The position numbers and the translations under genes are program-made. From a virus, in IMG/VR virus record IMGVR_UViG_3300033153_007777, positions 1-24,556 of that record: 24,556 bases of DNA; one strand, given 5' to 3'. Of the stretch, positions 1,483 to 18,712 are shown in pieces. The first letter of the stretch is position 1, and each line of letters opens with the position of its first letter. The notes beneath the pieces are model-generated. The model had not been told where the DNA came from. It saw only the letters and a list, made by a program, of their open reading frames with translations, and searched no databases.

Positions 1483-1546
1483 TCGGAAGCGTGTCATATC
1501 AACGACTTATGACAACATAACCCACTATCATCATCTCATCTAGATG

Positions 1547-1569: not shown

Positions 1570-1586
1570 TCGTCAGTGGCGATAGG

Positions 1587-1665
1587 TTTCCTTTCTCCAT
1601 ACCCTATTGTATGTCCTTCAGGGGTGCACCCGAGTAGCTTTTCCTTTTCTCGTCCCCTATTGTAT
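1587..1665. repeat. Pyrimidine-rich direct repeat pair
   Basis: Segments 1587-1612 and 1640-1665 (26 bases each, 53 apart) agree at about 21 positions and share TTTCCTTT at the start and CCCTATTGTAT at the end. Between them lies the perfect 10-bp palindrome GGGTGCACCC (1622-1631). On the minus strand the shared end reads ATACAATAGGG. No function can be assigned. Confidence 0.55.
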
Positions 1666-1747
1666 CACTGTCATCATGGCGCGGAAGTACCGATCCCCAA
1701 GATGTGGTGTGTCCCAAATTGGAGCACCCCACCTGTGGTATGTCACA

Positions 1748-1772
1748 TAACTCGTGTCATAACCACGAGTTA
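1748..1772. repeat. Perfect 9-bp inverted repeat
   Basis: TAACTCGTG, seven bases (TCATAAC), CACGAGTTA. The arms pair perfectly. The motif is related to the TAACCCGTG half-sites of the dyad family, here arranged head to head. CACGAGTTAC also occurs as a single half-site at about 2952-2961, on the far side of the moron-like cassette. Confidence 0.65.
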
Positions 1773-1897
1773 CATCGAGTGCCGGAAACTCCAGCACGTC
1801 GCAAATCATGTGCCAAAATCGACGAGAAATATCATGCCAACGAAATTGTGTCGCATCTCGATACACGACAACGGGTTACGCTGGAATCGACATGTTA

Positions 1898-1924
1898 TGT
1901 GTCGTAACCCGTTGATATGACACA
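1898..1924. repeat. Dyad site with extended arms
   Basis: This copy of the 21-bp dyad (GTCGTA, ACCCGTTGA, TATGAC at 1901-1921) is extended by outer symmetric bases, giving TGTGTC...GACACA over 27 bp. A reverse-oriented half-site, ACGGGTTACG, lies about 30 bases upstream (1871-1880). It is the last well-formed copy before the small cassette promoter, about 150 bases away. Confidence 0.65.
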
Positions 1925-2052
1925 TCATCACGTCATGTCAACGAAACCCCATGACATGACATGAGTTCGGACAAATGTAAAAATGTAACCCCGCTCGTAA
2001 AATAAAATCCCAGAACTAAGTCCATATGTGGAAATGGGTTATGAAAAGGCAT

Positions 2053-2080
2053 TTGTTGGGGAAAAAATATGTGGTATAAT
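2053..2080 (+). promoter_or_regulatory. Extended -10 promoter of the small cassette
   Basis: TGGTATAAT (2072-2080) is a perfect extended -10 element (TGnTATAAT). The -35 region is weak: TTGTTG at 2053-2058 with a 16-base spacer, matching consensus only in its first three bases. Extended -10 promoters tolerate this. The start is expected near 2087, exactly where a perfect hairpin begins. It should drive the two genes at 2135 and 2378. Confidence 0.75.
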
Positions 2081-2086
2081 ACACAT

Positions 2087-2104
2087 GTCGGGCCGAAACC
2101 CGAC
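2087..2104 (+). promoter_or_regulatory. Leader hairpin at the transcript 5' end
   Basis: GTCGGG, loop CCGAAA, CCCGAC: a perfect 6-bp GC-rich stem beginning about where transcription should start. It could protect the 5' end of the mRNA from decay, or act as a repressor site over the +1 region. It leaves the ribosome binding site at 2118-2129 free. Confidence 0.6.
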
Positions 2105-2134
2105 GTGAATGATGTGGAAAGGAGGTGATGAAAC

Positions 2135-2332
2135 GTGTTACACCGATGGCCGTTGGCTGTGTTGACATGCCCATCGTGCAATGGCATGTCGGACGCAATC
2201 ATCATGTGTCCGTGCGAGGGGACAACGTTGCACGTCCATGATGATTGCGGTGCGGTAAACGTGCGAACGATCACGTTGACCGATGCCCAACGTGATGTGT
2301 TGCGCGAGTTGTTTGGATATGATGTGACATGA
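2135..2332 (+). CDS. Small cysteine-containing protein (65 aa), unknown
   Basis: A 65-residue protein starting at GTG 2135, directly after AAAGGAGGTGAT (2118-2129). That is a near-complete complement of the 16S rRNA 3' end and implies very strong initiation. CPSC at about residues 12-15, then CPC and a later His/Cys cluster (HVHDDCG), suggest a small metal-binding knuckle. The C-terminal third (LTDAQRDVLRELFGYD) looks helical and amphipathic. It is the first gene of a two-gene cassette with its own promoter and terminator. I do not recognise a family. A small regulatory or anti-defence protein is conceivable for this position but is not shown by the sequence. Confidence 0.65.
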   Translation: MLHRWPLAVLTCPSCNGMSDAIIMCPCEGTTLHVHDDCGAVNVRTITLTDAQRDVLRELFGYDVT

Positions 2333-2377
2333 TGTGACGTATCAACCGCAACAAATGGACGGGAGATCGGACGAACA

Positions 2378-2881
2378 ATGGACGCGAAATACGTAAAAAC
2401 GATCACGGGAACGGGCGCGGATGTAAAATCTCGCCAGAAGGACGCAGACGCACGGGCAAAAAAATGGATCGCCGATGCGCCGGACGGCGTGATCCGTGTT
2501 ATGGCCCGGACGCAACCGCACAATGGGACAACCGCTCTCGGTGAGGTGGTCGAATCCACGATTACCGATGATGAGCTCCGCACACATGCGCGGAAAAACA
2601 TCGTGATACACGTCCAGGGGATTGCGCGTGTCGGAGCCGGATGGCGAACGGAATCCGCCGGAGCCGCCAATACGCGATTGGTTGCGGCCATGGCCGATAC
2701 CGCCGGTGTGTCGGTTGCCGCGTTCATGGCCATGACGTCAGAAGAACGCGCCGCCGCATACGCGGCTGGTATCGCCGCACGTGCCAAATCGGTTCCGGCA
2801 ACCGCCGACGATATCACGGTCATTGCGGATGTGGCCGCCGCCGAACGGCCGAAAAACAAACGGTCGAAAAACAAAAAGTAA
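2378..2881 (+). CDS. Hypothetical protein of the moron-like cassette (167 aa)
   Basis: 167 residues, Ala-rich and mostly helical by appearance. It has a charged N-terminal third, a middle containing ITDDELRTHARKNIVIHV, an Ala-rich helical part (about residues 90-150), and a lysine-rich tail built from a 15-base tandem repeat (PKNKRSKNKK). The tail could bind nucleic acid or act as a flexible basic arm. There are no membrane segments or signal peptide. The ATG at 2378 has a modest site, GGGAG (2361-2365), 12 bases upstream. The gene is visibly richer in GC than the late genes and favours CGN arginine codons where the late genes often use AGG/AGA. This supports recent acquisition. No family is recognised. 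Confidence 0.65.
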   Translation: MDAKYVKTITGTGADVKSRQKDADARAKKWIADAPDGVIRVMARTQPHNGTTALGEVVESTITDDELRTHARKNIVIHVQGIARVGAGWRTESAGAANTRLVAAMADTAGVSVAAFMAMTSEERAAAYAAGIAARAKSVPATADDITVIADVAAAERPKNKRSKNKK

Positions 2882-2891
2882 TCGTACTCGG

Positions 2892-2926
2892 AAACCCCAC
2901 GTGAACCCCGTCCCACGTGGGGTTTT
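2892..2926 (+). terminator. Intrinsic terminator of the small cassette
   Basis: AAACCCCACGTG (2892-2903), a 10-base loop, CACGTGGGGTTT (2914-2925), with the T-run continuing to 2926. The 12-bp stem is perfect and lies 11 bases after the stop of the 167-residue gene. The U-run is short, but the A/T stem base compensates. It closes the cassette and, being nearly symmetric (AAAC...GTTT), may also work on the other strand. Confidence 0.8.
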
Positions 2927-2929
2927 CCA

Positions 2930-3119
2930 TTGTCATAACATCATATAGTAGCACGAGTTACGGCGAACGGCAAGCGGTGTCCCCTAACGGGGACGGACGC
3001 AAGTTGAAATAACGGCTATTATGTATAATAAAGACGTGCGTAACCTCTCTAAAAATTTCTCTGCGATTTTTTCATATTGTCCCAAGATGGAACACCTCCA
3101 TCTGTCTTCAGACCAATGT
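2930..3119. other. Non-coding spacer between cassette terminator and P2
   Basis: No gene seen. It contains a perfect hairpin, GTCCCC-TAAC-GGGGAC (2979-2994), a TATAAT box (3024-3029) without a well-spaced -35 box, an AT-rich stretch with six T after GCGA (about 3062-3072), and a 7-bp hairpin AGATGGA-ACACC-TCCATCT (3085-3103). A CACGAGTTAC half-site (about 2952-2961) links it to the repeat region upstream of the cassette. Confidence 0.5.
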
Positions 3120-3179
3120 GAGTGACGCAACATTTTTTATTTTTCCCGTAACCCGTGTCGTGTCATGGGTTTGTGGAGC

Positions 3180-3208
3180 TTGACTTGCACCGTGTTTCGA
3201 TGTAAAAT
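3180..3208 (+). promoter_or_regulatory. Promoter P2 of the late operon
   Basis: TTGACT (3180-3185), a 17-base spacer, TAAAAT (3203-3208). The upstream sequence from 3120 repeats the P1 block: GAGTGACGCAACA, then GTAACCCGTGTC, then ATGGGTT, then the -35 box, with the spacing conserved to within one base. The dyad next to -35 is more degenerate than in P1, and the spacer palindrome is absent. It reads into the small terminase gene and, with no clear terminator seen afterwards, probably through the whole structural operon. The leader contains ACCGAACCTTCT (3240-3251), also present at 119-130. Confidence 0.75.
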
Positions 3209-3268
3209 ATATATGACGTCGAGGGTGTAAGGCGACGTAACCGAACCTTCTTCTGTGGAGCATCTATC

Positions 3269-5672: not shown

Positions 5673-7117
5673 GCGAATCTGAAAAAATTTCTGAGAAAAA
5701 ATCTGGGATCAACGTTTACATCCTCAAGAGTGCAGTTGAGGCAGATGCTATCCTCAAGTCGCGGGATAATCCTATGGAGCGCTTGGATGAAGAGTCACTT
5801 GAGTATTATGATCCTCCGTATGATCCCCAGGATTTGGTCGATCTTATGAGCGTCAGTACGACACATGCCCGTTGTGTTAAGGCCAAGGCAGCTGACGCAG
5901 CGGGGATTGGTTATAAGATCATCGGGTCTGATCCTGATGTGGAGCCGTCTAAGAAGAGCATCAAGAAGATTCGTGATTTCGTTCGACATGTCCATAGACG
6001 ATTTGACCTATGTACCATCTTGGAAGAGGCCGTTAAGGATAGGGAGAGCATCGGGTGGTCTGCCACAGAGGTCATTAGGAACAACGCAGGAAAGGTCAGC
6101 CGCCTCGTGCCTGTGCCAGCGCACAGCATTCGCGTTGTGAGGAAGGATGCAGATAGGAGAGCAGCGTTCGTGCAGATCTCAGATCTCAAGGCCAATGTGT
6201 ACTTTCAGGAGTTCCCAGATAAGTACAAAGATGGCAGGCCAAACTTCATTGGCGCAAAGGAAGGTAAAGACACTCGAAGACGTGTCAAGGGTTCAGCCAC
6301 TGAGCTGATCTTCTGGCAAAAGCCTCATACATCCGTGACCAGATGGTATGGTGTTCCAGACATTATTCCGTCTTCAGGAGATGTCGCGGCTGTGAGGCAG
6401 ATCAGGGATCGTTTCTTAAAGTTCTTTGACAACAACTGCATCCCTCGACACGCTATCACTCTCATCGGTTCGGAGCTGACGCCGGAAGCTCGTAGGGCGA
6501 TTGAAGAGTTCTTCCGTGCATCCCTTGAGAAAGACCCACATAAGACGCTCATCCTCGCCTCTGACGATCCCGACTTTAGCACTAAGTTCGATAAGGTAGA
6601 GGCGGAGCAGCTCGAAGCGGACTATCGAGAGACGCGGAAGGATTTGAGGGATTTCATCCGTCTAGCACATGGTATACCTCCAGCTATTCTTGGTATTGAA
6701 GGAGGTACGAGTAAGGGCGCAGGTTCGGGCCTCAGTCAAGCTGAGATCTATGTCAACCGCATCATTACACCAATTCAGCGAGGTCTGCACAAGATCCTCG
6801 ATAACATTGTGGAGTTTGGTCTTGGCATCACGGATGCAGTGATACGGTTAGATGCGCCTGACATCAGGGACTTGAATCTGGAGATGCGCCGCAACACGCA
6901 GTATATTTCTCATGGTGTATTCAGCATCAATGACGTGCTCAAGACCCTTGGGATGCCCAAGATCAAGGGTGGTGACAAGCATCACATTTGGTCTCGTCGT
7001 ACTCAACCAAAGATTGTGGGAGTTGACACGGGAGAGGAAGGCACTGACACAGGTGCGGGTACGGAGTCAGAAGGTGGAGGTGGTGGTGGAGCGGTCTCGG
7101 ACATGAACAGAGCATAG
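5669..7117 (+). CDS. Portal protein
   Basis: 482 residues. Portal proteins form the dodecameric ring at the capsid vertex through which DNA enters and leaves. The sequence fits the PBSX/P2-like portal family: DPPYDPQDLVDLMSVSTTHARCVKAKA near the N-terminus, RWYGVPDIIP near the middle (about residue 225), RDRFLKFFDNNCIPRHAI after it, and AHGIPPAILGI (about 330-340) followed by LSQAEIYVNRIITPIQ, where the crown and stem helices lie. The C-terminus is a Gly/Glu-rich tail with a run of six glycines. Its ATG overlaps the terminase stop by four bases, indicating coupled translation. Length and position are normal for the family. Confidence 0.9.
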   Translation: MSESEKISEKKSGINVYILKSAVEADAILKSRDNPMERLDEESLEYYDPPYDPQDLVDLMSVSTTHARCVKAKAADAAGIGYKIIGSDPDVEPSKKSIKKIRDFVRHVHRRFDLCTILEEAVKDRESIGWSATEVIRNNAGKVSRLVPVPAHSIRVVRKDADRRAAFVQISDLKANVYFQEFPDKYKDGRPNFIGAKEGKDTRRRVKGSATELIFWQKPHTSVTRWYGVPDIIPSSGDVAAVRQIRDRFLKFFDNNCIPRHAITLIGSELTPEARRAIEEFFRASLEKDPHKTLILASDDPDFSTKFDKVEAEQLEADYRETRKDLRDFIRLAHGIPPAILGIEGGTSKGAGSGLSQAEIYVNRIITPIQRGLHKILDNIVEFGLGITDAVIRLDAPDIRDLNLEMRRNTQYISHGVFSINDVLKTLGMPKIKGGDKHHIWSRRTQPKIVGVDTGEEGTDTGAGTESEGGGGGGAVSDMNRA

Positions 7118-7118
7118 C

Positions 7119-7202
7119 ATGTATCACTTACTGATGTTGCTGTCGGGATTGTTGCTGCTGCCACTTAGTTGGATATGTGGATGGGGAAGGAAGCGTAGAT
7201 GA
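7119..7202 (+). CDS. Tiny membrane peptide (27 aa), tentative
   Basis: A 27-codon frame starting one base after the portal stop codon. It encodes a hydrophobic, Leu-rich stretch (about residues 4-20) followed by WGRKRR, which is the layout of a single membrane helix with a positive cytoplasmic end. No strong ribosome binding site precedes it, but the close position allows re-initiation after the portal gene. Small peptides like this occur in phages as lysis or membrane accessory factors. The reading is based only on composition and position, and it may be untranslated. Confidence 0.35.
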   Translation: MYHLLMLLSGLLLLPLSWICGWGRKRR

Positions 7203-7227
7203 CGCTGTTTTTGACAGGGAGGTAGTG

Positions 7228-7401
7228 ATGGCAACTGCACGTCGTCCTAGTGGAGGCTCACGTCCTCGAGATGGACGTGGTGCTGGTCGAGGCATGTCTG
7301 GGGGACAGCGTGGTGGACGGAACACAGGAGGTTGTAGCAGAGGTGGCCCTGGCGCTGGACGTGGAGGTGGTAGGGGCAGAGGTAAAGGGCGCACAGGCTA
7401 G
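7228..7401 (+). CDS. Arg/Gly-rich mini-protein (57 aa)
   Basis: 57 residues, almost entirely Gly, Arg, Ser and Pro, with many RGG/GRG steps and one cysteine. The ATG at 7228 follows AGGGAGG at a normal distance, so translation is likely. The protein should be disordered and strongly basic. RGG-type sequences bind RNA or DNA non-specifically and promote condensation. It lies between portal and protease, where phages often carry small unassigned genes. A DNA-condensing or capsid-interior role is conceivable, but nothing in the sequence proves it. In-frame codons upstream to 7177 lack a good ribosome binding site. Confidence 0.55.
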   Translation: MATARRPSGGSRPRDGRGAGRGMSGGQRGGRNTGGCSRGGPGAGRGGGRGRGKGRTG

Positions 7402-7609
7402 AGTGCGAGAAAGTGTGGTCAGCCCGTGACCGAATCATCTATGGCTGCCTGTCGCAGCCCGCCCAGGGGGGTGAAAAATATGGGGCGTCCGAGCGAGGGA
7501 ACGAAGTGACCGAGCGAGCTCCCCTTGCGTTTGAGCGAGCGAGGGAGCGAAGCGAGCGAAGCGAGCGGGAGGACCCGTGTTGAACATGAAGTATGGGAGG
7601 TGATGTTGA
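7402..7609. other. Non-coding gap with GC-rich repeats
   Basis: There is no convincing gene. A 6-bp hairpin GGCTGC-CTGTC-GCAGCC lies at about 7443-7459. A repeat patch made of GAGCGA/GAAGCGA units covers about 7490-7568, including the 17-mer CGAGCGAGGGARCGAAG at 7490-7506 and 7536-7552 (one difference). The patch has higher GC than the flanking genes. The segment ends in GGGAGGTGAT, the ribosome binding site of the protease gene. At more than 200 bases this is the largest gap within the late operon. Confidence 0.6.
7490..7568. repeat. GAGCGA/GAAGCGA repeat patch
   Basis: Short units GAGCGA, GCGAAGC and GAGGGAGC are iterated. The 17-base segment CGAGCGAGGGARCGAAG occurs twice, 46 bases apart. 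The last part, GCGAAGCGAGCGAAGCGAGCG, is close to a perfect tandem array of a 9-base unit. Similar GCGAGCGAAGC arrays are seen scattered in some bacterial and organellar genomes, with no settled function. Confidence 0.7.
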
Positions 7610-8917
7610 GTGCCACTGCCAAATGAACACGCTTGTCGTCTGCGAGACCCCAGTGATTTCAAGCCTGAGAGCTTTCGTCGGATGGTGCGAGAGCACGCTG
7701 GAAAGGCATACTCTGTCATTATGGGCAGATTACGGGGTCAGGATACCTTGACTGAGCAGACATATCGTTATGACAAGAGTACGTGGACCGCTGATGCAGC
7801 GAGATCTCACTGTAAGGCTCACAAAGGCAGGTTCGAAGCTGCTCGCGTTGAAAAGGAGAATGAACGACAGGTGTTAAAGACTGTGGTTCGGAAGCTCAAG
7901 GACGCATTTTACACTGTAATGAAGCAGGTCGATGCAGTTGGGCAGGTTGAGGTGGCACAGGATATCTGGTTCGGCTGCTTCAGCAAGGCTGATAAAGCAG
8001 CGCTGTCTATGTTCGAGACAGTTCCCTCGGGTGAGGGCTTACGGTACTCCATACAGCGGTGTTATGTCGGCAAGACTGTATATGACATCCTCAATCTGGA
8101 CACTGGTGCTGGAGGAGTGCTGCGTTGGGCGTTGTTGTCAGCTGCAAAAGACGACGCGAAGGTGGTCACGACTCTGAAGGAGGCACTATCATGCTCTGCT
8201 GATGTCGACTTGGACTCTATTACCTGTGCGCCTCTGGAGGCGAGAAGCAAGGTTTGGATGCACTTGCATGGAGTGCAGCCTGTAGGCAAATCTGGTGCCT
8301 CTGCTGACTTCCCTGGAGTGTATCGACTCATAGATGAGGGAGATTTGGAGTATGGAGAGCAGACACCATACTCTCATGAGTACATTCTGAGTAAGGGGAA
8401 GCAAGAAGGTCGCTTCATGGTGCTGCTCACTAAGAGCGTCGCGGAAGGTGAGCAAGCAGGGGGCGAACTGATGCTCACTCCTGCGTTGTGGACGCTTTCT
8501 AAGGTCGTTGAGCCGAAGGTCGTACACAAATCTGGACCGAGGTCTGAGCTCATCTTCAAGTCAGTAGGAGAAGAGCCTGAGTACATCGTCGGCGGCATCG
8601 TCTACCCTGCAGATGCAGTTGATTTGCAGGGGGACACTGTATCAAAGGAAGACATTTGGAAACTCTTGAAACACTTCATGTTGAATGGGCGACAGTTCTC
8701 AGTTCAACATCATGGGCGTAAGGTAGCGCTGCCAATCATTGAGAGCTTTCAAGCAGAAGTGGACACGATAAAGGGAGGAGCACCTCTTCCAGCCGGCGCG
8801 TTCTGGCTCGCCGTCAGCTTGGCTAATGAGCGCAGTCTATTCACAGACATCAAGAACGGTGTCATAACGGGCTGGAGCATCGAAGGCACTGGAATGGCTG
8901 AACAGCTGAAAGGGTAG
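7610..8917 (+). CDS. Prohead maturation protease, XkdF-like (S78_2 type)
   Basis: 435 residues. The C-terminal domain (about 320-435) fits the XkdF/peptidase S78_2 pattern: YIVGGIVYPADAVDLQGDT, then SVQHHGR (H367/H368) and GVITGWSIEG (S423), the expected catalytic His and Ser of a prohead protease. Such enzymes trim scaffold and capsid protein during head maturation. The N-terminus (about 6-76) has a HACRLRDPSDF...HCKAHKGRFEAA module often fused to phage proteases. The middle (about 230-280) includes YSHEYILSKGKQEGRFMVL, which faintly recalls the LigD phosphoesterase-type fold; this is a weak inference. GTG 7610 is chosen because GGAGGTGAT lies just upstream; no in-frame ATG is near. The scaffold gene follows 10 bases after the stop. 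Confidence 0.82.
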   Translation: MPLPNEHACRLRDPSDFKPESFRRMVREHAGKAYSVIMGRLRGQDTLTEQTYRYDKSTWTADAARSHCKAHKGRFEAARVEKENERQVLKTVVRKLKDAFYTVMKQVDAVGQVEVAQDIWFGCFSKADKAALSMFETVPSGEGLRYSIQRCYVGKTVYDILNLDTGAGGVLRWALLSAAKDDAKVVTTLKEALSCSADVDLDSITCAPLEARSKVWMHLHGVQPVGKSGASADFPGVYRLIDEGDLEYGEQTPYSHEYILSKGKQEGRFMVLLTKSVAEGEQAGGELMLTPALWTLSKVVEPKVVHKSGPRSELIFKSVGEEPEYIVGGIVYPADAVDLQGDTVSKEDIWKLLKHFMLNGRQFSVQHHGRKVALPIIESFQAEVDTIKGGAPLPAGAFWLAVSLANERSLFTDIKNGVITGWSIEGTGMAEQLKG

Positions 8918-8927
8918 GTGAGGACGT

Positions 8928-9563
8928 ATGTTGAAGCCTAAACGTAGGCTCAAGGACTTGATTATAGATCTGATCGCACTGGTCAAGAGTCCCGCAACTG
9001 GAATTCGCTTTGCGATCATTAAGGACATGGAAGGGGGTGATGAACCCGTGGACAAGATTTTTCAGCTCATTCAAGAAATCTGCGCAGGTGAGACGTTTCC
9101 TGACGACTTAAGGAAGTCGGAGATCCCAGAGGCATTCCTCGAGAAGGTTCAAAAGGCTTTGAGCACTCTAAGTAACGTGATAAAGGACCTTCCTGAGGAG
9201 GCTCAAGATGCGATCAAGTTGGTAGTCAAGATCGCAGGTTATGGCTATCCTGCTGTAGAAGAGCAAAAGGAGTCTGATAAAGCTCCCAGTGAGTTCGTGA
9301 AGATGCTTCAAGAGATCCAAGCTCAAGTGGTCAATGCTGACAAGAAGTTCGATGCCACTGTGCAAGAGGTTGCGACCTCGAAGGGCACGATGGACGAGAT
9401 CAAAAAGTCTCTCAGCGCTCTCGTCGAGCGTCTGACCGCACTAGAGAAGGCAACTGGTGAGGAGAAGTCAAAGGGTGCGGATGAAGTCAAAGATGAGAAG
9501 AAAGTAGAGAAGGCAGAGGAGGACATGTTCGAGTCCGTGATTCCGCCAGAAGTGATGCTCTAA
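8928..9563 (+). CDS. Scaffold protein (putative), with possible internal start
   Basis: 211 residues between protease and capsid, rich in Lys, Glu and Ala, with a predicted coiled-coil middle (about 120-175) and a highly charged tail (about 175-200) ending in ESVIPPEVML. This is the usual make-up of a phage scaffold that guides capsid assembly and is then cleaved away. The first 35 residues (LIDLIALVKSPATGIRFAIIKD) resemble the short beta segment at the tail of XkdF-type proteases (V/ISLVxxPA...F...K), so they may be a split-off part of the protease fold. A strong site AAGGGGGTGAT (9031-9041) precedes an in-frame GTG at 9048 and could start a 171-residue form lacking that part. Confidence 0.65.
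   Translation: MLKPKRRLKDLIIDLIALVKSPATGIRFAIIKDMEGGDEPVDKIFQLIQEICAGETFPDDLRKSEIPEAFLEKVQKALSTLSNVIKDLPEEAQDAIKLVVKIAGYGYPAVEEQKESDKAPSEFVKMLQEIQAQVVNADKKFDATVQEVATSKGTMDEIKKSLSALVERLTALEKATGEEKSKGADEVKDEKKVEKAEEDMFESVIPPEVML
9048..9050 (+). promoter_or_regulatory. Candidate internal start codon in the scaffold gene
   Basis: This GTG, codon 41 of the scaffold gene, is preceded by AAGGGGGTGAT (9031-9041) at a spacing of six bases. The same GGxGGTGAT-(N)5-6-GTG layout starts the genes at 2135 and 7610, and a close variant starts 9633. A nested product would begin VDKIFQLIQEICAG and contain the whole helical scaffold part. Confidence 0.45.
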
Positions 9564-9632
9564 ACTGTTGTGAATGGAAATAGAGCACTTTGTCGTGTTC
9601 TTTAGGAAATTATGGGAGGAGGTGAATAGACA

Positions 9633-10643
9633 GTGGATAAAAGAGTGGATGTTGAAAAAGGTTCGTTGGAAGATGTTAGAGAACAGATCCGAAAGGCTGT
9701 AATCAACTCAACGAACCTGCCCAACGTGATCTTGAACCGAGTTCAGACTGATACGTTCATTGATGAGACAGTCGATGAGTCGGCTCTTCTGAAGATCGTC
9801 AGGATCGCGAAGCGAAAGGAGCCTTCGGGTGAGATCAACCGCTTGTACTTCGACGAGCCAGTCACTGAGGATGCGACTCTAACTCACTCTGAGCGCGTTC
9901 CCTCGGAGACCTATGTTCAGTACGACACCAAGAAGATGCGGTCTACATTCGATCTCAAGTCCGACTTCATGGAGGACATTAAGGCTACCTCTCCTGCACA
10001 GGCGAGGCAGCGTATTGCCACGATGTTCACCCATCAGATCGGCAACGATATGGAGCAGCTATCCATTGAGGGGGATGATTCTATCAGCGGTTCGACCACG
10101 GCGAGTGATCGCTTACTTCGAGCTAATGATGGGTTCTCTCAACTTATGACCGATAATCTGCCCTCTGGACAGGATATCGACGCTGCGGGCGCTGGCGTGT
10201 CGAAGAAGCTCTTCTTTGACATGATTCAAGCCCTGCCGAGTAAATGGAAAAGAAACAAGCCCAAGTATCGCTTCATCTTGCCGCCAGCGTTTGCAGAGCA
10301 GTGGATGTATGCCATCAGCGAGCTTGCGACTGGTGGAGGTGATGCTGCCATCGCTGGTGTCTCCATCAAGCCATTCGGTATTCCGCTTGCGGAGATTCCG
10401 CTGATGCCGACTGATCTCAGCTATGGCACAGGCACCACGGACTGCGGTGAGATCTGGCTCTGCGACCCCAAGAACTTGGTTGTTGTGATTCAGAGAAAAA
10501 TCACATGGGAGTGGGAGCGTAACCCTCGGAGTGATCTCTGGGAAGCGACGATTCACACTCGATGCGATTTCCTCATCGAAATCGAAAAGGCAGTTGTGAG
10601 GGCGAAGAATGTCTCGTCTTCTGGAACAGCTTATACAGGATAG
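9633..10643 (+). CDS. Major capsid protein (HK97-like)
   Basis: 336 residues, starting at GTG 9633 after GGAGGAGGTGA, a strong site suited to the most abundant virion protein. The order of features fits an HK97-fold capsid. There is a charged N-terminal arm. SETYVQYDTKKMRSTFDLKSDFMED (about 90-115) corresponds to the E-loop and spine region. RQRIATMFTHQIGNDMEQLSIEGD (about 125-150) is a spine helix with the usual acidic end. P- and A-domain strands follow. The C-terminus (NLVVVIQRKITWEWERNPRSDLWEATIHTRCDFLIEIEKAVVRAKNV) is typical of capsid subunits. Its last 35 bases overlap the start of the glycosyltransferase gene. It follows protease and scaffold genes, as expected. Confidence 0.88.
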   Translation: MDKRVDVEKGSLEDVREQIRKAVINSTNLPNVILNRVQTDTFIDETVDESALLKIVRIAKRKEPSGEINRLYFDEPVTEDATLTHSERVPSETYVQYDTKKMRSTFDLKSDFMEDIKATSPAQARQRIATMFTHQIGNDMEQLSIEGDDSISGSTTASDRLLRANDGFSQLMTDNLPSGQDIDAAGAGVSKKLFFDMIQALPSKWKRNKPKYRFILPPAFAEQWMYAISELATGGGDAAIAGVSIKPFGIPLAEIPLMPTDLSYGTGTTDCGEIWLCDPKNLVVVIQRKITWEWERNPRSDLWEATIHTRCDFLIEIEKAVVRAKNVSSSGTAYTG

Positions 10644-13260
10644 TAGCATGGTCTATGTGAAGGGACCATCTAAGAAGATGCCTAGAGGGTTGCTCCCCAG
10701 CGATCCTCAAGGTATCTTCGAGAAACGAATTCTCCTTCGGCGTGGCGGCGCATTAGGGGACGTGCTGTTTTCGGCTGCAGTGGCTTCGACGATTCGTGCT
10801 CGTCAGCCTCGCTGTTCGATCACGTTTGCATGTCCAGAGTGGATTATGCCTCTAATGCGCCGCGTCCCGGAGATAGATCAAGTTGTAGATAGTGCAGATG
10901 CGTGGAGGCAGAGCTTCTGGGAGAATTATGATTACCTCATTGACTTCGCAGGCCTGTTGGAGCGTGGAGATAGGGCCAAAACTGTAGACTACTTTCAGCT
11001 CCATCTTGAACATGCAGGTATCCAGGATTGGCCCCTGACGTTTCCAGAGTTTCAGTTCTCTCCAGGTTCGAAGAACTACATTGCGATTCATGTAGGTGGG
11101 TCAAATGCGAAGAAGAAGTGGCCTATTGCACATTGGAGTGATTTGATCTTGGATTTGGAGAAGAGGCAGATTCAGTTCGTCCTTCTGGGTGACGCTGGTG
11201 ATGATCACCCTGAGGTCAGCGATCCTGAGTGCAATCTCATTGGAAGTACTTCCATACTGGAGGCGTGCAAAGTTGTGTATGGTGCGGCGTTGTTTGTAGG
11301 CACAGACTCTGGACTCTTGCATTTCGCGGGAATGGCGAGAGTGCCATCTTTCTCGCTCTGGGGAGCGTTTGAGCCCAGATTGACATTACCCAACTATATC
11401 GCTGCACGACACATATCGCGGTTCGTAGGGTGTGCCCCTTGTATGGAACTTGATCCGAAGAAGTGTCAACACAAGTTTCGATGTATGACTTCACTTCTTC
11501 CAGCGATGGTAGCGACGAAGCTGTGGAATCATTCTGCTATTGCACATGCGTCTATGTCACGAAGTCCATCAGTGCTTAGCGTTCCTGCACCTGCGCCTTC
11601 GGCTGAAGATTTTGTGGTACAAGAGAGATACTTCTATAATGGTGTTGAGGTGGCTGAGTTGCCAGCTGAACGAGACACTGTTGAAGTCAGTATCTTGATC
11701 CCAAATCGAGGGACGGCGAAGTTTCTACCTAAGCTGTATCAGACAATCGTGAGTAACACTACTGGAGTTGCGTATGAAACTGTGCTCTGTACAGATGGGG
11801 ACAGTCCGCATAAGCCCAAGACTGGATTAGAAATTGTACTATCGAGGTCCTTGGGCTATGCAGGGGCTAATAATCGAGCGTATAGTGCAGCACACATGGA
11901 GAGTGAGTTCATCTGCCTGCTAAATGCAGATGTCGAAGTGGAGCCAAATTGGTTGAAGCCGTTGGTGGACTTCCTTAAGGCTCATCCTGACGTAGGCATT
12001 GTTGGGAGTAGGCAGAATAAGTTCAACGGGAAGATTGAATCTCTCGGCAGTCAATGGGATTGGAGGACGCATCACTTTCCTCACATCGGTTATGGGCAGA
12101 TGACGCATCCCGATACGAGTAAGTCCTGTGAAAGGGAGATGATTACCTTCTCAGCTGTCTTGATTCGTCGAAAGGTCTGGGAGCAGATCGACGGCTTGGA
12201 CATGACTTACGGTGCGGGGTACTGGGAAGACACAGATTTCTGTATGAGGGCGAGACAGCTTGGGTGGAAGATCTATTGTGTTCCTGAGAGCGTAGTCAAG
12301 CATCATGTTGGGGGCAGTAAGGCATTTCCTCGGGGTATTAAGGAGCGGAACAAGGCCATCTTTCATAAGCGCTGGATAGATACGGGGCTTGTGAACAAGT
12401 TTCGATGCCAGATGGGAGTACGACCTCACAAGGATCGCATCGTAGCCTGTTACATTGTGTTGAATGAAGAAGAGTTCATCGAAGCCAGTCTTGAGAGCAT
12501 CTATGACTTCGTAGATAAGATCATCATAGTTGAAGGGGGGAACGATTTTGCAGTCAAGGCTGGCTGGTGTGATAGCTCAAAGCGTAGCTCGGATCGTACT
12601 GTAGAGCGCATTGAGGCGCTTCCTGATTCAGAGAATAAAATAGAGCTGATTCAGGGGGATTGGAAGACGAAGACAGAGCAGCGTAACGCTTATGCTCAAC
12701 GGCTGCATCCTGGGGATTGGATGCTGTTGATGGATGGAGATGAGGTGTTTCTCGACTCTGGTATATGGCGTGTATCTGCTCTAATGCACACTTATGACAT
12801 CATCATGCCAGGTTTCTATCTATTCTGGAACAATTTTAACACAGTTGGAACGTCTGTGTGGGAGGACTTTCTTCAAACAAAGGTCGTACATTGGAGAGAA
12901 GGCTTCAGGTATGTGAACCACAACTGTCCATCAGACGCATCTGGGCGGTTGATTGTGAGGAATGGAGAGTATAAGAAGTGGCGAAATCGAGATGAGCGGC
13001 TCTATTGTCACTACAGCTGGGTCAAGCCCCTCGCGAAGTTGCGGGCAAAGGCAGAGTATTATCGGAAGCAGCCTGGAGGGCCGAAGGTAGTGCCTGAATA
13101 CATAGACCGCATATTCCTAGGCTGGAGGCAGGATCCGAAGACCGTCGAAAAGCGGTTTGGCACGCATCTCTACGGCGGAGGAGAGACGCGACACTTTGGG
13201 CATGAGCACCCTGTGGCTATTGCTAGGCGGTTGAAGGCAGGAGTATTTGACTGGGAATAG
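10609..13260 (+). CDS. Three-domain glycosyltransferase (GT9-GT2-GT2)
   Basis: 883 residues with three sugar-transferase modules. Residues ~40-320 resemble GT9 heptosyltransferases: RRGGALGDVLFSAAVA at the start, FVGTDSGLLHFAGM (about 229-242), and a cysteine cluster GCAPCMELDPKKC...C. Residues ~355-600 are GT2-like: VSILIPNRG, LLNADVEVEPNW (about 436-447, a DxD-like metal site) and GAGYWEDTDFCMRA (about 535). Residues ~605-880 are a second GT2-like domain: VACYIVLNEEEFIEASLESI and WMLLMDGDEVF (about 704-714). ATG 10609 has GAGGG six bases upstream, inside the capsid gene; ATG 10648 is an alternative that avoids the overlap. There is no membrane segment, so it should act in the cytoplasm. Target sugar and acceptor are unknown. 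Confidence 0.85.
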   Translation: MSRLLEQLIQDSSMVYVKGPSKKMPRGLLPSDPQGIFEKRILLRRGGALGDVLFSAAVASTIRARQPRCSITFACPEWIMPLMRRVPEIDQVVDSADAWRQSFWENYDYLIDFAGLLERGDRAKTVDYFQLHLEHAGIQDWPLTFPEFQFSPGSKNYIAIHVGGSNAKKKWPIAHWSDLILDLEKRQIQFVLLGDAGDDHPEVSDPECNLIGSTSILEACKVVYGAALFVGTDSGLLHFAGMARVPSFSLWGAFEPRLTLPNYIAARHISRFVGCAPCMELDPKKCQHKFRCMTSLLPAMVATKLWNHSAIAHASMSRSPSVLSVPAPAPSAEDFVVQERYFYNGVEVAELPAERDTVEVSILIPNRGTAKFLPKLYQTIVSNTTGVAYETVLCTDGDSPHKPKTGLEIVLSRSLGYAGANNRAYSAAHMESEFICLLNADVEVEPNWLKPLVDFLKAHPDVGIVGSRQNKFNGKIESLGSQWDWRTHHFPHIGYGQMTHPDTSKSCEREMITFSAVLIRRKVWEQIDGLDMTYGAGYWEDTDFCMRARQLGWKIYCVPESVVKHHVGGSKAFPRGIKERNKAIFHKRWIDTGLVNKFRCQMGVRPHKDRIVACYIVLNEEEFIEASLESIYDFVDKIIIVEGGNDFAVKAGWCDSSKRSSDRTVERIEALPDSENKIELIQGDWKTKTEQRNAYAQRLHPGDWMLLMDGDEVFLDSGIWRVSALMHTYDIIMPGFYLFWNNFNTVGTSVWEDFLQTKVVHWREGFRYVNHNCPSDASGRLIVRNGEYKKWRNRDERLYCHYSWVKPLAKLRAKAEYYRKQPGGPKVVPEYIDRIFLGWRQDPKTVEKRFGTHLYGGGETRHFGHEHPVAIARRLKAGVFDWE

Positions 13261-13302: not shown

Positions 13303-14322
13303 ATGATGAGACCAGAAGCGTTGGTTGCAGCAGGTGGAGGGCTTGGTGATATAGTAATGACAACGCCAGTGATATCCGCTGTCTACCAACTCGGCTACAC
13401 TATCGACGTTCTCATCAAGCCTGACATTGCGTGGGCAGCAGGACTTCTTGAGCCTTGGGACATTGTTCGTAAGGTGTACGTAGGTAAGCCTCCAGAACGA
13501 CAGTATGCTGTGGTAGTTCGAGCATGGTGGCACCGCGATGTCTTATTAGATAATGGCCCTGAAATCAAGGCGGATCACATCAGTCTCAGAACTAACCACG
13601 AGATTCTGGCGAATATGGGAGCTGTGAGAAAGCTCGGCTTCGTAGGTCCAACACCTCCAACATACGTTCCAGTGAATGGACAGTATACGGCGCGAGTTCT
13701 TCCTGAGCACTATGTTGCCATTTGTCCAGGGTATAGTGGAAAGCGTGGGCGGAAGTATTGGCAGAGGAAGCAGTGGCATCATTGGAACGAGTTTGTGCGA
13801 TGCACTCCATCTAAGCCCTTTGTGGTGCTTGGCTCAACGACGGATAAGGAGTCATTGCCGAAGATCACTGGGTCTAATGTCGTAGATCTCGTCGGAACTA
13901 CATCTTTATCGGAGGCAATCTCAATTCTGTCTCGCGCTGACTTCGTTGTCGCGCTCGACAATGGACTAGCGCATCTTGCTGCAGCACTGGGAAAGTCAGT
14001 ATTCGTCCTGTTTGGAGCGACCTCAGAGATCAAGAGTAGACCTCTGGGGAGGGAGGTAACAGTAGTTGCCGTAGACATCCCATGTCGTCCATGTCAGATG
14101 ACGGACGCTTGGGGGAGGTGTAAGGACTGGAGATGTATGTCTAGCATGGGTCCAGAATTCGTCTGGAACATTATTAGGGAGAGTCGAAATGGTGATCGAA
14201 GTATTGACGACGGCTCTGTTGGCGGCCGTGACGACTGGCGTGAGCATAGTGATAAAGCCTCTGTTCGGCTGGATGCGGTCAAAGGCGAACGAGCAGAAGC
14301 TGCTGGAAAAGTCGAGGCTTGA
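13303..14322 (+). CDS. GT9-family glycosyltransferase (heptosyltransferase-like)
   Basis: 339 residues. The N-terminus has the GT9 pattern GGGLGDIVMTTPVISAVYQLG (about 10-30), where the first glycine-rich loop contacts the sugar nucleotide. The second half has FVVALDNGLAHLAAALGKSVFVLFG (about 214-238), the signature donor-binding segment of ADP-heptose:LPS heptosyltransferases, and a final Cys cluster CRPCQ...CKDWRC. The domain should end near FVWNII (about residue 290). The remaining 48 or so residues are hydrophilic and are encoded by DNA that also encodes the start of the holin-like gene in another frame, so they may be a read-out tail. AAAGGTGA precedes the ATG. It may work with the preceding fused enzyme in the same glycan pathway. 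Confidence 0.82.
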   Translation: MMRPEALVAAGGGLGDIVMTTPVISAVYQLGYTIDVLIKPDIAWAAGLLEPWDIVRKVYVGKPPERQYAVVVRAWWHRDVLLDNGPEIKADHISLRTNHEILANMGAVRKLGFVGPTPPTYVPVNGQYTARVLPEHYVAICPGYSGKRGRKYWQRKQWHHWNEFVRCTPSKPFVVLGSTTDKESLPKITGSNVVDLVGTTSLSEAISILSRADFVVALDNGLAHLAAALGKSVFVLFGATSEIKSRPLGREVTVVAVDIPCRPCQMTDAWGRCKDWRCMSSMGPEFVWNIIRESRNGDRSIDDGSVGGRDDWREHSDKASVRLDAVKGERAEAAGKVEA

Positions 14323-14578
14323 CGAAGCGATCTTTGATGCGCTTGAGCTCGGTATCAGCAACGTGAGTCACACGACTCGAGAGACAATCCTCAAGGCTGC
14401 AGAGGATGGTAAGCTCTCGCAGGTTGACAAACGGGAGCTGTGTCGCGAGGCGAAGCACATTGCTAAGGAAGTTCTCCTGACGAAGGGCATTGATCTCTAT
14501 AAGGCGGCTAGCGCTGATGCGTTGGATGCAATCGTTCGCCGCCTTGTTGATGCAGGGCAGGAGTGCAAAAAGGAGTAA
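14189..14578 (+). CDS. LLH-type phage holin-like protein
   Basis: 129 residues. A hydrophobic segment at about residues 5-27 (LTTALLAAVTTGVSIVIKPLF) is followed by a charged helical part (KANEQKLLEKSRLDEAIFDALE) and a C-terminal helix region (KHIAKEVLLTKGIDLYKAASADALDAIVRRLVDAG). This order resembles the phage LL-H holin superfamily, whose members pair one membrane helix with a coiled, charged domain. In that family the role is membrane permeabilisation during lysis, but several members are assigned only by similarity. The start has AGGGAGAG upstream. It overlaps the GT9 gene by 134 bases. No endolysin is visible next to it. A membrane-anchored structural role is an alternative. Confidence 0.6.
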   Translation: MVIEVLTTALLAAVTTGVSIVIKPLFGWMRSKANEQKLLEKSRLDEAIFDALELGISNVSHTTRETILKAAEDGKLSQVDKRELCREAKHIAKEVLLTKGIDLYKAASADALDAIVRRLVDAGQECKKE

Positions 14579-14580
14579 GC

Positions 14581-15621
14581 GTGGCTCTCGTTTATCCGCC
14601 CACTATTACTGGTGAGACAGATCGCTACCGTCATCTGTATGCGGCGATAGAGGCGTTTCGCCTCAAGCACAACAAGCGGGCAGGTGATGTGTCGGGGAAA
14701 GCACATGCCTTTCGGCTCAAGCTGCGTGAGGTGCGGCAGACTGTTCTTGACGAAATGCTGCACCTCCGTCAGCTTGTCGGCACGCCAGGCTGGAAGCCGC
14801 CGAAGGACGAACTCGCAAGTGACCCTGTGCTCGACACGCTGAAGGCTGAAGGCAAGGCCGCCCACAAGACGGCGAATCTCAAGGAACTGACAGGCGTTGA
14901 TCTGGACGCGGTTATTGGCTCTAAGGAAATTCCGCCCGACCCGACAGAGGACTTCACCGGCTACACGTCCTTTGATGAGGGTAGCGACCTCACGATCACC
15001 GCGCCTAAGATCGACATTGACACAATGCGGAATGATGTCAGCGCGTACGTCTATGACGATAAAGGTGCTGCCCATTTCGGAGACGGGATTGATCACGACT
15101 TCGACATAAACTGGCACTACACGGGTCAGGGACGCTTCGCATTATGGGCAATGTCGAATCATCTTGAGTCGTACTACGATTGGTTCAACGGCGCAAATAA
15201 TGAAGCCATTGCCCTTGTAGTTTACGGTCCTAGTGCAGCTTGGTATCTTTATGACTTTGAAGATGATTCCTTTGACTACGCTACACATCCGACTGTCCCT
15301 GTGGGAGCAGATGCGTGGAATTACTGTACTGTCACTCGCTCTGGTGACAACGTTTCGATTGAATTTTTCTCCGACTCGAACAGGACCAGCAGCCGAGATG
15401 TGATAACAACGGCTGTGGCGAATGGGCGCACCTACCGCTACATCTATGGCCTCAACAGCTATGATGATCCTGGAACGAATGCGGGAGATGGTGGAGCGGT
15501 TATCCAAAACCTCGACCTGAATGAGGCCGCGGCTTTTGTCCCTTATCCTCTCTCTGCTCGCGGTGCTTCTGGTGGGCTGACTGTGCTATCTGGGGGCCTT
15601 GCGTCTGGAGGTAAAGCCTGA
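14581..15621 (+). CDS. Appendage protein with lectin-like beta domain (putative)
   Basis: 346 residues starting at GTG 14581, which is preceded by AAAAAGGAG inside the end of the holin-like gene. The N-terminal 110 residues are helical and charged (YRHLYAAIEAFRLKHNKR...). The remainder (about 125-320) is rich in Asp, Tyr, Trp, Thr and Gly with alternating strands, for example FDINWHYTGQGRFALWAMSN and the later YCTVTRSGDNVSIEFFSDSN. It resembles the concanavalin/laminin-G type jelly roll used for binding glycans. The end is Gly/Ser-rich. A virion surface or fibre protein is the likely role, since it precedes a large fibre-like gene with a one-base TGATG overlap. The family is not recognised with certainty. 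Confidence 0.55.
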   Translation: MALVYPPTITGETDRYRHLYAAIEAFRLKHNKRAGDVSGKAHAFRLKLREVRQTVLDEMLHLRQLVGTPGWKPPKDELASDPVLDTLKAEGKAAHKTANLKELTGVDLDAVIGSKEIPPDPTEDFTGYTSFDEGSDLTITAPKIDIDTMRNDVSAYVYDDKGAAHFGDGIDHDFDINWHYTGQGRFALWAMSNHLESYYDWFNGANNEAIALVVYGPSAAWYLYDFEDDSFDYATHPTVPVGADAWNYCTVTRSGDNVSIEFFSDSNRTSSRDVITTAVANGRTYRYIYGLNSYDDPGTNAGDGGAVIQNLDLNEAAAFVPYPLSARGASGGLTVLSGGLASGGKA

Positions 15622-18053
15622 TGAATGTGACTGGTGGTGCAACTGACGTTACTACCTACTTCGTCCTTCGCACGGCAGCCGATGGTACAGCGAAGACTGG
15701 AGCAACGATTGCTGATATTGATCTTCAGTATATACGTACTGGAGAATCGCCTTCGGCAAAAGTCGATGCAGTTGAACTTGCTACGATAAACGGCGCTCAC
15801 GAGGACAACAAGGTCAAGGAGGTGGATAGCACGGATGCGCCTGGCCTTTATCGGGTGGACTGGCCGGATGCTGCATTTGCCGCCGGTGTCAAGCAGGTGA
15901 TTCTGACCGTCAAGCTCGCGACGTGCTTCACTGAGCACATGGCCGTTGACATAGATGCACCAGTGAATACAACAAAGCTAAACGGCACGGCACAGACCGG
16001 CAGAGATATCGGCGCAAGCGTCTTGCTTTCCTCCGGTTCGGACCCAGGGCAATTAGATTTCACGTCTGGTGTGGTCAAGTCGGATCTCACGCAGATACTA
16101 GGTACAGCTCAACGCGCAACCGATCTTGCGGAAATAGCTCAGTATCTATTCGCAAACGAGGCAACCCTGACCTCTGTACTCGCTGACAACAGCGTGCTCG
16201 CACAACTATTGGCAACAGATGGGGACATTAGTGAGTACTCAAAAACTACAGACGCTCTGCAATCACTCAGGGATGCGATTTCTGAAATTCGGGCGTCTAT
16301 GCCGAGTACGAGTGTGGCAACGTTCGGGCAGATGCTGGCAGGTTCGCAGACGGATACATGGGCGAAGACAACTGCCACTGATTCTGATTATTGGATAGTC
16401 TCGCCGCCTGACAACGCGAATCCGCTTGACTGCGCTCTTGTATTTGAGGCCCCGTCTGGCAGCTCTCCCGTGCGGGTGGACGTACTCGGATATTTCGATG
16501 CCGCGCCGAATCGGTATGTCAATATCTGGTTGAATGATTTTAGTCACGCAAACGCAGTGGCAGATGATGCTGCAACTGCAACGGACGTCAATCCCTCTGT
16601 AATCACGGCTTCAGTGGCGGGCAGTTATGCGGGCCTGACGCTTGATGGACTGCCGCTCTACATTGATTCTGGGACGAACGTCACGCAGGGATTCTACACG
16701 ATTGCATCTAACACCGATGATACGATTACCCTGACCTCAAACTGTTGTTCCGGCGGTGCAGGTTCAGACATCCACATGAACGTAATCGTCTGGGAACGAA
16801 TGACTAGCAATGAATCCGCGATGGAGAATGCAAGCAGTTCGGCAAATTACTCGGTAGCTGTTCATGCAAGGCATATCTGTGCAAGCGGAGTTCATGTAAT
16901 AGTGCGGTTTACTGATTCGAGTGATACCGTATTTTCGACTGGCTATGAATTGAAACTGGATTACGTGACATTCACGTCTCAGGGTGCAACTGGGACGGTA
17001 TGTGATATTGGGTTGATTGTAGATGCAGTTATCAACGGTTCCGTGGCAAACGCAGATATTCCTCACACACTCGGCAGTATTTCGCGGGCATCACGGCTGG
17101 TCGAAACAAGCGTTGCTACTGCGGATTCCACAACCTCATTCACCTTGGCAGACGGCCCTGCTGTAGCGGATGCCTATGTCGGCGCGACGATAACTATCGA
17201 GGATAAGGACTCGATAGTAATGGCAAATGACCATCATCATCGAGAGGCGAGGATAATCACTGGCTGGACAGATGGGCGAGTGGTCACTGTCGATAGCGCG
17301 TTTGGATTCACGCCTGCTGTTGGCGACATCGTTTTCGTGTGGCCAGATTATTCGAGGCAGACGGGTGATTCTTACGGCCGCTTGGGTGCGCCTGCCAGCG
17401 CGAGTGTGTCTGCTGATATTGCGGCTGTGAAAACTGTGGCCGATACGATAGCAGGCGATGTGGAGAATATAGACGGCGAGGCAATGCGAGGAACCGATGA
17501 TGCAAATACAGTTGTGCCAGATGTGGCTGGTACGGCAGCTGCACTTCACACGACGACTGACGCAGCGATCGCTACCAGAAGTTCACACGATGCCGCTGCT
17601 GTGTGGGCTGTTGGCACACGAACTCTGTCCAGCTTTGGTACTCTACTTGCTGACATCTGGGCTTACGCGACTAGGACTCTAACTGGTGGTGGAGATGCTA
17701 CAGAGGCGAAGCAGAACACGATAATCGCTAATCTTTCGACCTTGCGTGGAGCGGACAACGATACACTGAAGACTCTGTCTGATCAACTTGACAGCGTTGG
17801 AGGACAGACAGGGAGTGGTGCTGATACAGTGACGCTAATTATCACAGATGGAGATGATAATCCTATCGCAGATGTAGATGTTTGGCTCACTTCTGATGAA
17901 GATGGAGATACGGTAGTCGCTGGCACGAAGCAGACAGACGCTGCTGGTGAGGTTGAGTTCATGTTGGATGCTGGTACTACTTACTATCGTTGGGCGCAGA
18001 AGTCTGGATATAACTTCACGAATCCAACGTCTTTTGTGGCGGTAGCAGACTGA
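15621..18053 (+). CDS. Large fibre/appendage protein (putative)
   Basis: 810 residues, low in Cys and Lys and rich in Asp, Ala, Thr and Ser, as is usual for phage fibres. The N-terminus (about 1-115, with a GLYRVDWPDAAFAAGVKQV motif) matches a recurring module of phage appendage proteins. The middle is long and beta-rich. About residues 590-720 are helical, with AAVWAVGTRTLSSFG and WAYATRTLTGGG motifs that often recur in fibre stalks. The last 75 residues (VTLIITDGDDNPIADVDVWLTS...) form an Ig-like or carboxypeptidase-regulatory-like fold often used for surface binding. It starts and ends in TGATG overlaps. It is probably a receptor-binding or capsid-decorating fibre. The place before the connector genes is unusual, since tail fibres normally lie after the tape measure gene. 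Confidence 0.6.
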   Translation: MNVTGGATDVTTYFVLRTAADGTAKTGATIADIDLQYIRTGESPSAKVDAVELATINGAHEDNKVKEVDSTDAPGLYRVDWPDAAFAAGVKQVILTVKLATCFTEHMAVDIDAPVNTTKLNGTAQTGRDIGASVLLSSGSDPGQLDFTSGVVKSDLTQILGTAQRATDLAEIAQYLFANEATLTSVLADNSVLAQLLATDGDISEYSKTTDALQSLRDAISEIRASMPSTSVATFGQMLAGSQTDTWAKTTATDSDYWIVSPPDNANPLDCALVFEAPSGSSPVRVDVLGYFDAAPNRYVNIWLNDFSHANAVADDAATATDVNPSVITASVAGSYAGLTLDGLPLYIDSGTNVTQGFYTIASNTDDTITLTSNCCSGGAGSDIHMNVIVWERMTSNESAMENASSSANYSVAVHARHICASGVHVIVRFTDSSDTVFSTGYELKLDYVTFTSQGATGTVCDIGLIVDAVINGSVANADIPHTLGSISRASRLVETSVATADSTTSFTLADGPAVADAYVGATITIEDKDSIVMANDHHHREARIITGWTDGRVVTVDSAFGFTPAVGDIVFVWPDYSRQTGDSYGRLGAPASASVSADIAAVKTVADTIAGDVENIDGEAMRGTDDANTVVPDVAGTAAALHTTTDAAIATRSSHDAAAVWAVGTRTLSSFGTLLADIWAYATRTLTGGGDATEAKQNTIIANLSTLRGADNDTLKTLSDQLDSVGGQTGSGADTVTLIITDGDDNPIADVDVWLTSDEDGDTVVAGTKQTDAAGEVEFMLDAGTTYYRWAQKSGYNFTNPTSFVAVAD

Positions 18054-18712
18054 TGGGAAATACATTTGATGATGCAGTAGTCGCGACTAGTGATGTCAGT
18101 GGGAATTACATCACGAAGGCGGATCTCACGAATTATGGCGTCAGCATATCTGATGTGGAGGACGCTCACCTAGCTATGTTGATCGCTGATGTGGAGAAGG
18201 CTATTGATCGTCATACTGGTGATCAGTTCTACCTTTCTTCCGGCGTTACGAAGTACTTTGATGGCAATGGCAGAGATACGCTGTACTTCATGCCAGCAAC
18301 ATCGCTTCGCCTGCGAAATCTCACATCAGTCGATATTTGGAACATCATCACTAGCAGTGTCACAACGACCTTAACGGAGACTGAGGACTACATTGTTGAT
18401 GACTCTGATGAGTACATCTTGCGTGTTGATGGTGGTACTTGGCCCAAGGGTGTTCGCAATGTGCGCGTTATCGGAGACTGGGGATGGACTTCGTGTCCAG
18501 ATCCCATCAGGTGGTGTGCAGCTCTTATGATCGCCTTGCGTGTTGACCCAAACTTCAAGGGCCTTCATACTGATGCCGCACTGAGCTGGCCTCATCTGTC
18601 CGTAGGTCGTGTGGTGACAGGGAGGAAGTTGTCTCCGATCTTGGGCGTTCCAAGCATTGACACGATTCTGTGGAGTTACCGTAGGGTTACTAGCTTGATG
18701 ATAGTGCCATGA
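18053..18712 (+). CDS. Head-tail connector (adaptor) protein
   Basis: 219 residues. It has the usual features of the gp6/gp15-like adaptor that docks under the portal: a helical N-terminal half with HLAMLIADVEKAIDRHTGDQFY (about 40-60), then a beta hairpin region (TKYFDGNGRDTLYFMPATSLRLRNLTSVDIW), DYIVDDSDEYILRVDGGTWPKGVRNVRVIGDWGW (about 110-145), and a closing helix (PDPIRWCAALMIALRV). The strand pattern and the W-P-G-N-V-x-V motif recur in this family. It starts in TGATG with the fibre gene and ends in ATGA with the next connector, so translation is coupled. It is the first of the neck genes. Confidence 0.78.
   Translation: MGNTFDDAVVATSDVSGNYITKADLTNYGVSISDVEDAHLAMLIADVEKAIDRHTGDQFYLSSGVTKYFDGNGRDTLYFMPATSLRLRNLTSVDIWNIITSSVTTTLTETEDYIVDDSDEYILRVDGGTWPKGVRNVRVIGDWGWTSCPDPIRWCAALMIALRVDPNFKGLHTDAALSWPHLSVGRVVTGRKLSPILGVPSIDTILWSYRRVTSLMIVP

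Follow-up and report, generated by a model that had tools for sequence, protein, structure and literature searches.

The viral record IMGVR_UViG_3300033153_007777, analysed here in full (positions 1 to 24,556; this 24,556-base stretch is called the window), encodes on its plus strand an 883-residue protein in which three glycosyltransferase (GT) domains are joined in one chain, and the gene for this protein begins inside the end of the major capsid gene. With a probability of roughly 0.6, we interpret the protein as a soluble, late, multi-step glycosyltransferase whose synthesis keeps pace with that of the capsid protein and which acts on a virion protein.

The fused glycosyltransferase and its overlap with the capsid gene

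The open reading frame (ORF) of the GT gene has no internal stop. Its product is matched by the Pfam profiles Glyco_transf_9 at residues 142-280 (66 bits, cut-off 22) and Glycos_transf_2 at residues 361-483 (62 bits, cut-off 23), and at residues 659-714 by Glyco_tranf_2_4 with 20 bits, under the cut-off of 27.5. Together with alignments and a structural model of the GT2-GT2 part, these matches establish that the chain consists of a GT9 domain followed by two tandem GT2 (GT-A) domains, as a preliminary description made from the sequence alone had proposed. The same description had placed the gene start within the last 35 bases of the capsid gene, and the overlap is indeed 35 bases long. An ATG lies at this overlap in all seven loci compared (the window and six relatives), even where the encoded N-terminus differs. 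Codon 14 offers another possible start (ATG at 10648, with AGGA before it), which is less likely because three of the relatives (L007, L008 and L009) lack a start codon at that site, whereas the overlap ATG is kept in all seven. A frameshift fusion of capsid and GT was also considered, and no evidence for such a fusion was seen. Within the overlap, the window shares 22 identical bases with L003 and L004 (CTGGAACAGCTTATACAGGATA, at 10621-10642), while the flanks differ at many sites; this stretch is constrained by two reading frames, and L008 and L009 differ there.

The upstream gene is a true major capsid gene, judged by the match of its product to phrog_1623 (E = 1.7e-60) and by the 205 phage records that tblastn with the capsid protein matched. 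Among the 20 matches listed, most are annotated as major capsid protein or virion structural protein, at 26-29% identity. The gene order of the window (terminase, portal, protease, capsid, the GT block, head-tail adaptor, neck protein and tape measure) is that of a normal head operon, which bears out the location given by the preliminary description.

To collect relatives, viral contigs were searched both with the capsid and with the enzyme. Six of them (L003, L004, L005, L007, L008 and L009) have capsids 65-80% identical to that of the window. The whole GT9-GT2-GT2 fusion is found in all five that run far enough, at 47-67% identity; it is complete in L003, L004, L008 and L009 (879-884 residues), L005 ends at 839 residues, and the contig of L007 ends inside the GT9 domain. 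Most pairs are saturated at synonymous sites. L008 and L009 are the closest to each other, and between them the ratio of nonsynonymous to synonymous substitution rates (dN/dS) is 0.11 in the GT9 domain, 0.09 in the first and 0.065 in the second GT2 domain, and 0.10 in the capsid. Each domain thus evolves under constraint similar to that of the capsid, so all three are maintained, and decay of one domain is rejected. The linker between GT9 and the first GT2 has dN/dS values of 0.18 (L008/L009) and 0.69 (window/L005). Since the start overlap, the fusion and a low dN/dS are all kept in relatives, the ORF did not arise by chance. INPHARED phage records contain no homologue that spans 80% of the enzyme, and a scan of genome contigs for two short peptide patterns, which is not a sensitive search, returned four distant partial matches only and no bacterial source or host.

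The preliminary description had reckoned with degraded catalytic residues in two of the three domains as an outcome that would speak against it; in the alignments, each of the three retains its known catalytic motifs intact. In the fused GT9, D51, K169/K170, D233-S234-G235 and H238 are invariant in six homologues and line up with heptosyltransferase II (structure 1psw). In WaaC and WaaF, such residues serve as the catalytic Asp of a GD motif, the phosphate-binding Lys and the D-S/N-G..H donor motif. Both GT9s of the window, the fused one and a free-standing one encoded just downstream, score above the curated profile cut-off for the CAZy family GT9, and the catalytic and donor motifs are present in the fused one. 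Assignment to a functional group within the family is another matter: the score against TIGR02195 (the heptosyltransferase II equivalog) is 70.1 bits versus a cut-off of 134.6, outside the lipopolysaccharide (LPS) heptosyltransferases, and the free GT9, despite a weak match to the TibC/Aah model TIGR04414, reaches 27.6 bits with a cut-off of 200. Thus, the likeness to WaaF/WaaC and TibC/Aah is one of GT9 signature and catalytic motif, whereas membership in either group fails. Enzymes of the TibC/Aah family heptosylate protein.

In the first GT2, the LNAD (D441) and GYWED (E540, D541) motifs are invariant in tandem-GT2 homologues; N in place of the first D of DxD is usual in GT2s of the LNxD type. 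By profile, fold model, acidic metal motif and ED motif this domain belongs to GT2 with a GT-A fold. It resembles polypeptide N-acetylgalactosaminyltransferases (GalNAc-transferases), which act on peptide Ser/Thr, both by profile and by fold, the relation being one of fold only. The second GT2 stays below the profile cut-off, as given above, and has a GT-A-like fold with a DxDE motif according to the model and the invariant residues (D709, D711 and E712 of DGDE, in 15 homologues). As read by eye in the alignment, the donor loops of both domains are unusual and conserved in the window clade: T-[DN]-G-[DE] in the first and, where DxGS is usual, EGGN in the second.

Structure prediction, which the preliminary description had proposed for all three domains, succeeded for part of the chain. 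The two GT2 domains were modelled confidently from 15 sequences, with a predicted local distance difference test (pLDDT) of 90.3, mostly above 90 in the first GT2, and a predicted template modelling score of 0.87. A full-length model from six sequences was poor (pLDDT 50) and was set aside, so the trusted model spans the GT2-GT2 part only. A fold search with it retrieved K4 chondroitin polymerase, heparosan synthase and polypeptide GalNAc-transferases, in agreement with the sequence-profile search. The two synthases, the top matches by fold and by profile, likewise carry two GT-A GT2 domains per chain, but at about 13% identity, a root-mean-square deviation near 18-22 Angstrom and with another domain arrangement; because global superposition is poor, what is shared are the domain folds and not the arrangement, and there is no evidence for a polymer product.

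Recurrence behind other capsids and relatives in large phages

Two further loci, L012 and L013, were recruited by the enzyme search alone and not by their capsids. In L012, a gene of the Phage_capsid family ends 19 bases before that of an 884-residue GT2-GT2-GT2 enzyme. In L013, the genes behind an SU10-type capsid gene are, in order, those of a GT9, a small protein, a GT2-GT2 enzyme, two methyltransferases and another GT2-like protein. BLAST found no similarity between the capsids of the window, L012 and L013. By sequence comparison, it is therefore shown that the position behind the capsid gene recurs with capsids of three sequence families. The L012 enzyme (7011-9665 of that contig) has the tandem GT2 part with a GT2 as first module in place of GT9, and represents a natural exchange of the N-terminal module. 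In L013, the separate GT9 and GT2-GT2 enzymes have about 40 N-terminal residues in common at 45% identity (encoded at 5892-6017 and 7761-7889 of that contig), in spite of unrelated catalytic domains. No Pfam family was found for this stretch, which could be a common docking tag.

Comparison with more distant capsid relatives suggests how the junction behind the capsid gene was altered. In Streptomyces phage Coruscant and Vibrio phage D4 a single short gene separates capsid and connector, and in Bacillus phage PBP180 short unnamed genes follow the capsid. The window has about 7.4 kilobases (kb) of GT and accessory genes in this junction. As the distant relatives keep their connectors close to the capsid, the GT block is an insertion exactly behind it. 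Two relatives with capsids 35% identical to that of the window, L010 and L011, have other genes at the junction, and the L010 contig has a weak GT9 match elsewhere.

The fusion is accompanied by a fourth glycosyltransferase, the free GT9, which the preliminary description did not mention. It is kept beside the fusion in L003, L004 and L009 and is 297-301 residues long in relatives. In the tree, the free GT9 stands apart from the fused one and groups with GT9s found beside tandem GT2s of large phages (support 99/98). A GT9 is present in 15 of the 16 records searched; the 15 include L010, which was recruited by its capsid and has only the weak match, and the protein encoded in some of the 16 is a GT2-GT9 and not a tandem GT2. 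Within these records, GT9 and tandem GT2 are associated beyond the window clade. GT2-GT2 proteins of large phages (L014, L036-L041) are 34-38% identical to the window enzyme over both GT2s, have the same invariant motifs and occur in records that also encode a GT9, but they lack the GT9 fusion and, where this can be checked, do not lie beside a capsid gene. Other large phages (L019, L020 and L026) encode fusions of the reverse order, GT2 then GT9. A few small genes stand directly before the tandem GT2 or GT2-GT9 gene in L039, L041, L047 and L048.

Proposed function and alternative explanations

The position of the GT gene suggests that it would be expressed late and translationally coupled to the capsid gene, and the overlap itself points to co-translation with the capsid protein. 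The enzyme would act in the cytoplasm on a virion protein during its synthesis. That the acceptor is a virion protein is probable; the capsid would be the most likely candidate, or else a protein encoded just downstream, and the chance that it is the capsid itself seems to us a little short of even. Counting the separate GT9 along with the three fused domains, up to four sugars could be added in succession from nucleotide-sugar donors, the domains presumably acting in sequence. The donors may include an adenosine diphosphate (ADP)-heptose-like sugar for the GT9 domains; given that the GT9s miss the LPS heptosyltransferase and TibC cut-offs, a heptose donor is a lead only.

Several observations weigh against modification of a virion protein. 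Adjacency to the capsid gene is not proof of substrate. In the tandem-GT2 tree the capsid-linked enzymes fall on one side (support 100/100) and the large-phage enzymes on the other; because the capsid-adjacent enzymes thus form one clade, the number of independent arrivals behind a capsid is one to three. In large phages, the GT2-GT2 relatives lie at a distance from the capsid gene, which in two of these phages is of the gp23 type and about 30 kb away. L010 and L011, both without a GT at the capsid-adjacent place, show similar conservation of the capsid C-terminus. Moreover, the GT9 domains score far under the curated levels of the heptosyltransferase families.

A different target would be a host surface glycan (LPS core, another envelope polymer or a lipid-linked precursor) modified late in infection, for example to keep progeny off debris or to exclude other phages. 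Both GT9s match LPS heptosyltransferase models best, GT9 is named for the LPS heptosyltransferases, and such enzymes are soluble and peripheral. A large-phage tandem-GT2 relative (L018) has a sugar-epimerase-like gene just downstream, which fits this explanation as well. We nevertheless consider it unlikely: the GT gene overlaps the capsid gene, the family recurs behind other capsids, 70 bits is far under the 134.6 set for LPS heptosyltransferases, and neither a membrane flippase nor a GtrA/B-type partner was recognised among the window proteins searched. A variant of the virion-protein interpretation, about which we are similarly doubtful, makes the downstream Ig-like protein or the predicted 352-residue accessory protein the acceptor, so that these and the GTs would have been inserted together as one decoration cassette. 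The GT and accessory genes do form one block between capsid and connector, in an order kept in L004, but no accessory counterpart was recognised with the capsid-adjacent GTs of L012 and L013 in the sequence at hand, both contigs ending shortly behind them.

Glycosylation of modified phage DNA bases as a protection against restriction has precedent in viral GTs that hypermodify DNA (Pyle 2024, as cited in PMC12619734). In four of the large phages (L039, L041, L047 and L048), a D12 DNA adenine methyltransferase gene lies about 1-2 kb before the tandem GT2 or GT2-GT9 gene, and a thymidylate-synthase-family protein occurs in three of the 16 records, all from large phages. For the window enzyme we regard this role as improbable: no thymidylate synthase or hydroxymethylase gene was found on the short contigs of its relatives, which are fragments, DNA-modifying GTs would have no need of linkage to a capsid gene, and by fold the enzyme groups with polysaccharide synthases and peptide GalNAc-transferases. 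Still more remote is that a mobile sugar-transfer gene landed behind the capsid and is carried there passively. The absence of the block from the junction in more distant capsid relatives would fit, yet purifying selection of capsid-like strength, the conserved overlap and the recurrence all argue otherwise.

Action on a virion protein has counterparts in other viruses. A111/114R of chlorovirus PBCV-1 has 860 residues and three GT domains of about 300 residues, is linked to the glycan of the major capsid protein and is proposed to add three core sugars, according to the available text of PMC7826918. As described there, it resembles the window protein in being a single virus-encoded chain of similar length with three GT domains, and differs in that the virus infects eukaryotic algae and the domains resemble Gal-, Xyl- and Fuc-transferases, with no GT9 named in that text; the comparison is by description only. 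Among tailed phages, mycobacteriophages such as Che8 and Rita have GT genes of their own, and their capsid and tail-tube proteins bear covalently attached glycans (Freeman et al. 2023, as cited in PMC12619734 and PMC11256854); the window shares with them the presence of intact phage-encoded GTs. The citing papers place several GT genes of the F1 phage Maravista near the 3' end of its genome, separate from the capsid gene. In our hands, a structure search of BFVD returned many multi-domain viral GT proteins. Given these and A111/114R, a fusion of three GTs is by itself not new, and the preliminary description overstated its case in calling the fusion uncommon. Literature searches for multidomain GTs of phages and for GTs next to capsid genes retrieved no paper that treats either directly. 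As far as these tools show, it is new that GT9-GT2-GT2 occurs as an architecture, that the gene for it overlaps a capsid gene and that the enzyme family recurs behind capsids of different families.

A more tentative extension, which we think doubtful, is a modular, capsid-coupled assembly line for glycans in tailed phages. Its first module would be swappable (GT9 in the window, GT2 in L012, separate genes in L013) and would start a sugar, possibly heptose from ADP-heptose, on a capsid residue, the next two modules extending it, and each phage lineage would coat its shell with its own short oligosaccharide. If the main interpretation is right, glycosylation of phage shells would not be confined to the mycobacteriophages, where it was discovered, and could be recognised by genome position, from GTs directly behind the capsid gene. 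The window protein would then be a bacterial-virus counterpart of the three-domain chlorovirus enzyme, and the genes a compact enzyme set for placing defined sugars on self-assembling protein shells.

Features of the window and its minor observations

The product of the gene at 14563..15621 is possibly a virion accessory protein, as its position suggests, and the 810-residue protein after it is a possible virion decoration or fibre (Table 1).

Table 1. Features of the head operon and GT block in the window
Feature	Position	Strand	Evidence or remark
Major capsid protein gene, 336 residues	9633..10643	+	last 35 bases overlap the GT gene
Three-domain glycosyltransferase, 883 residues	10609..13260	+	ORF, Pfam domains, conserved start and fusion, purifying selection
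GT9 domain, residues about 39-310	10723..11538	+	Pfam PF01075, 66 bits; aligned to WaaF structure 1psw
Variable linker, GT9 to first GT2, residues 311-355	11539..11673	+	least conserved stretch
First GT2 domain, GT-A fold, residues about 356-600	11674..12408	+	Pfam PF00535, 62 bits; alignments; model
Second GT2-like domain and C-terminal region, residues about 606-883	12424..13257	+	weak PF13704, GmaR match, invariant columns, model
Free-standing second GT9 gene, ORF of 339 residues	13303..14322	+	Pfam PF01075, 77 bits (cut-off 22)
Small protein, 129 residues	14189..14578	+	no PHROG or Pfam family found; counterpart by position in L003 and L004
Predicted protein, 352 residues	14563..15621	+	no family found (Pfam, PHROG)
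Protein of 810 residues with C-terminal Ig-like stretch	15621..18053	+	Big_1, E = 4e-6, below cut-off; partial homologue in L004
Head-tail adaptor, first connector gene past the block	18053..18712	+	phrog_442, E = 3.7e-16

The left end of the window (1-3250) has no long plus-strand ORF; the longest ORF there, 1933-2916, is on the minus strand and matched no Pfam or PHROG family. The free GT9 ORF extends, at 14189-14322, about 40 codons beyond the ends of its homologues, which gives a 134-base overlap with the next small gene.

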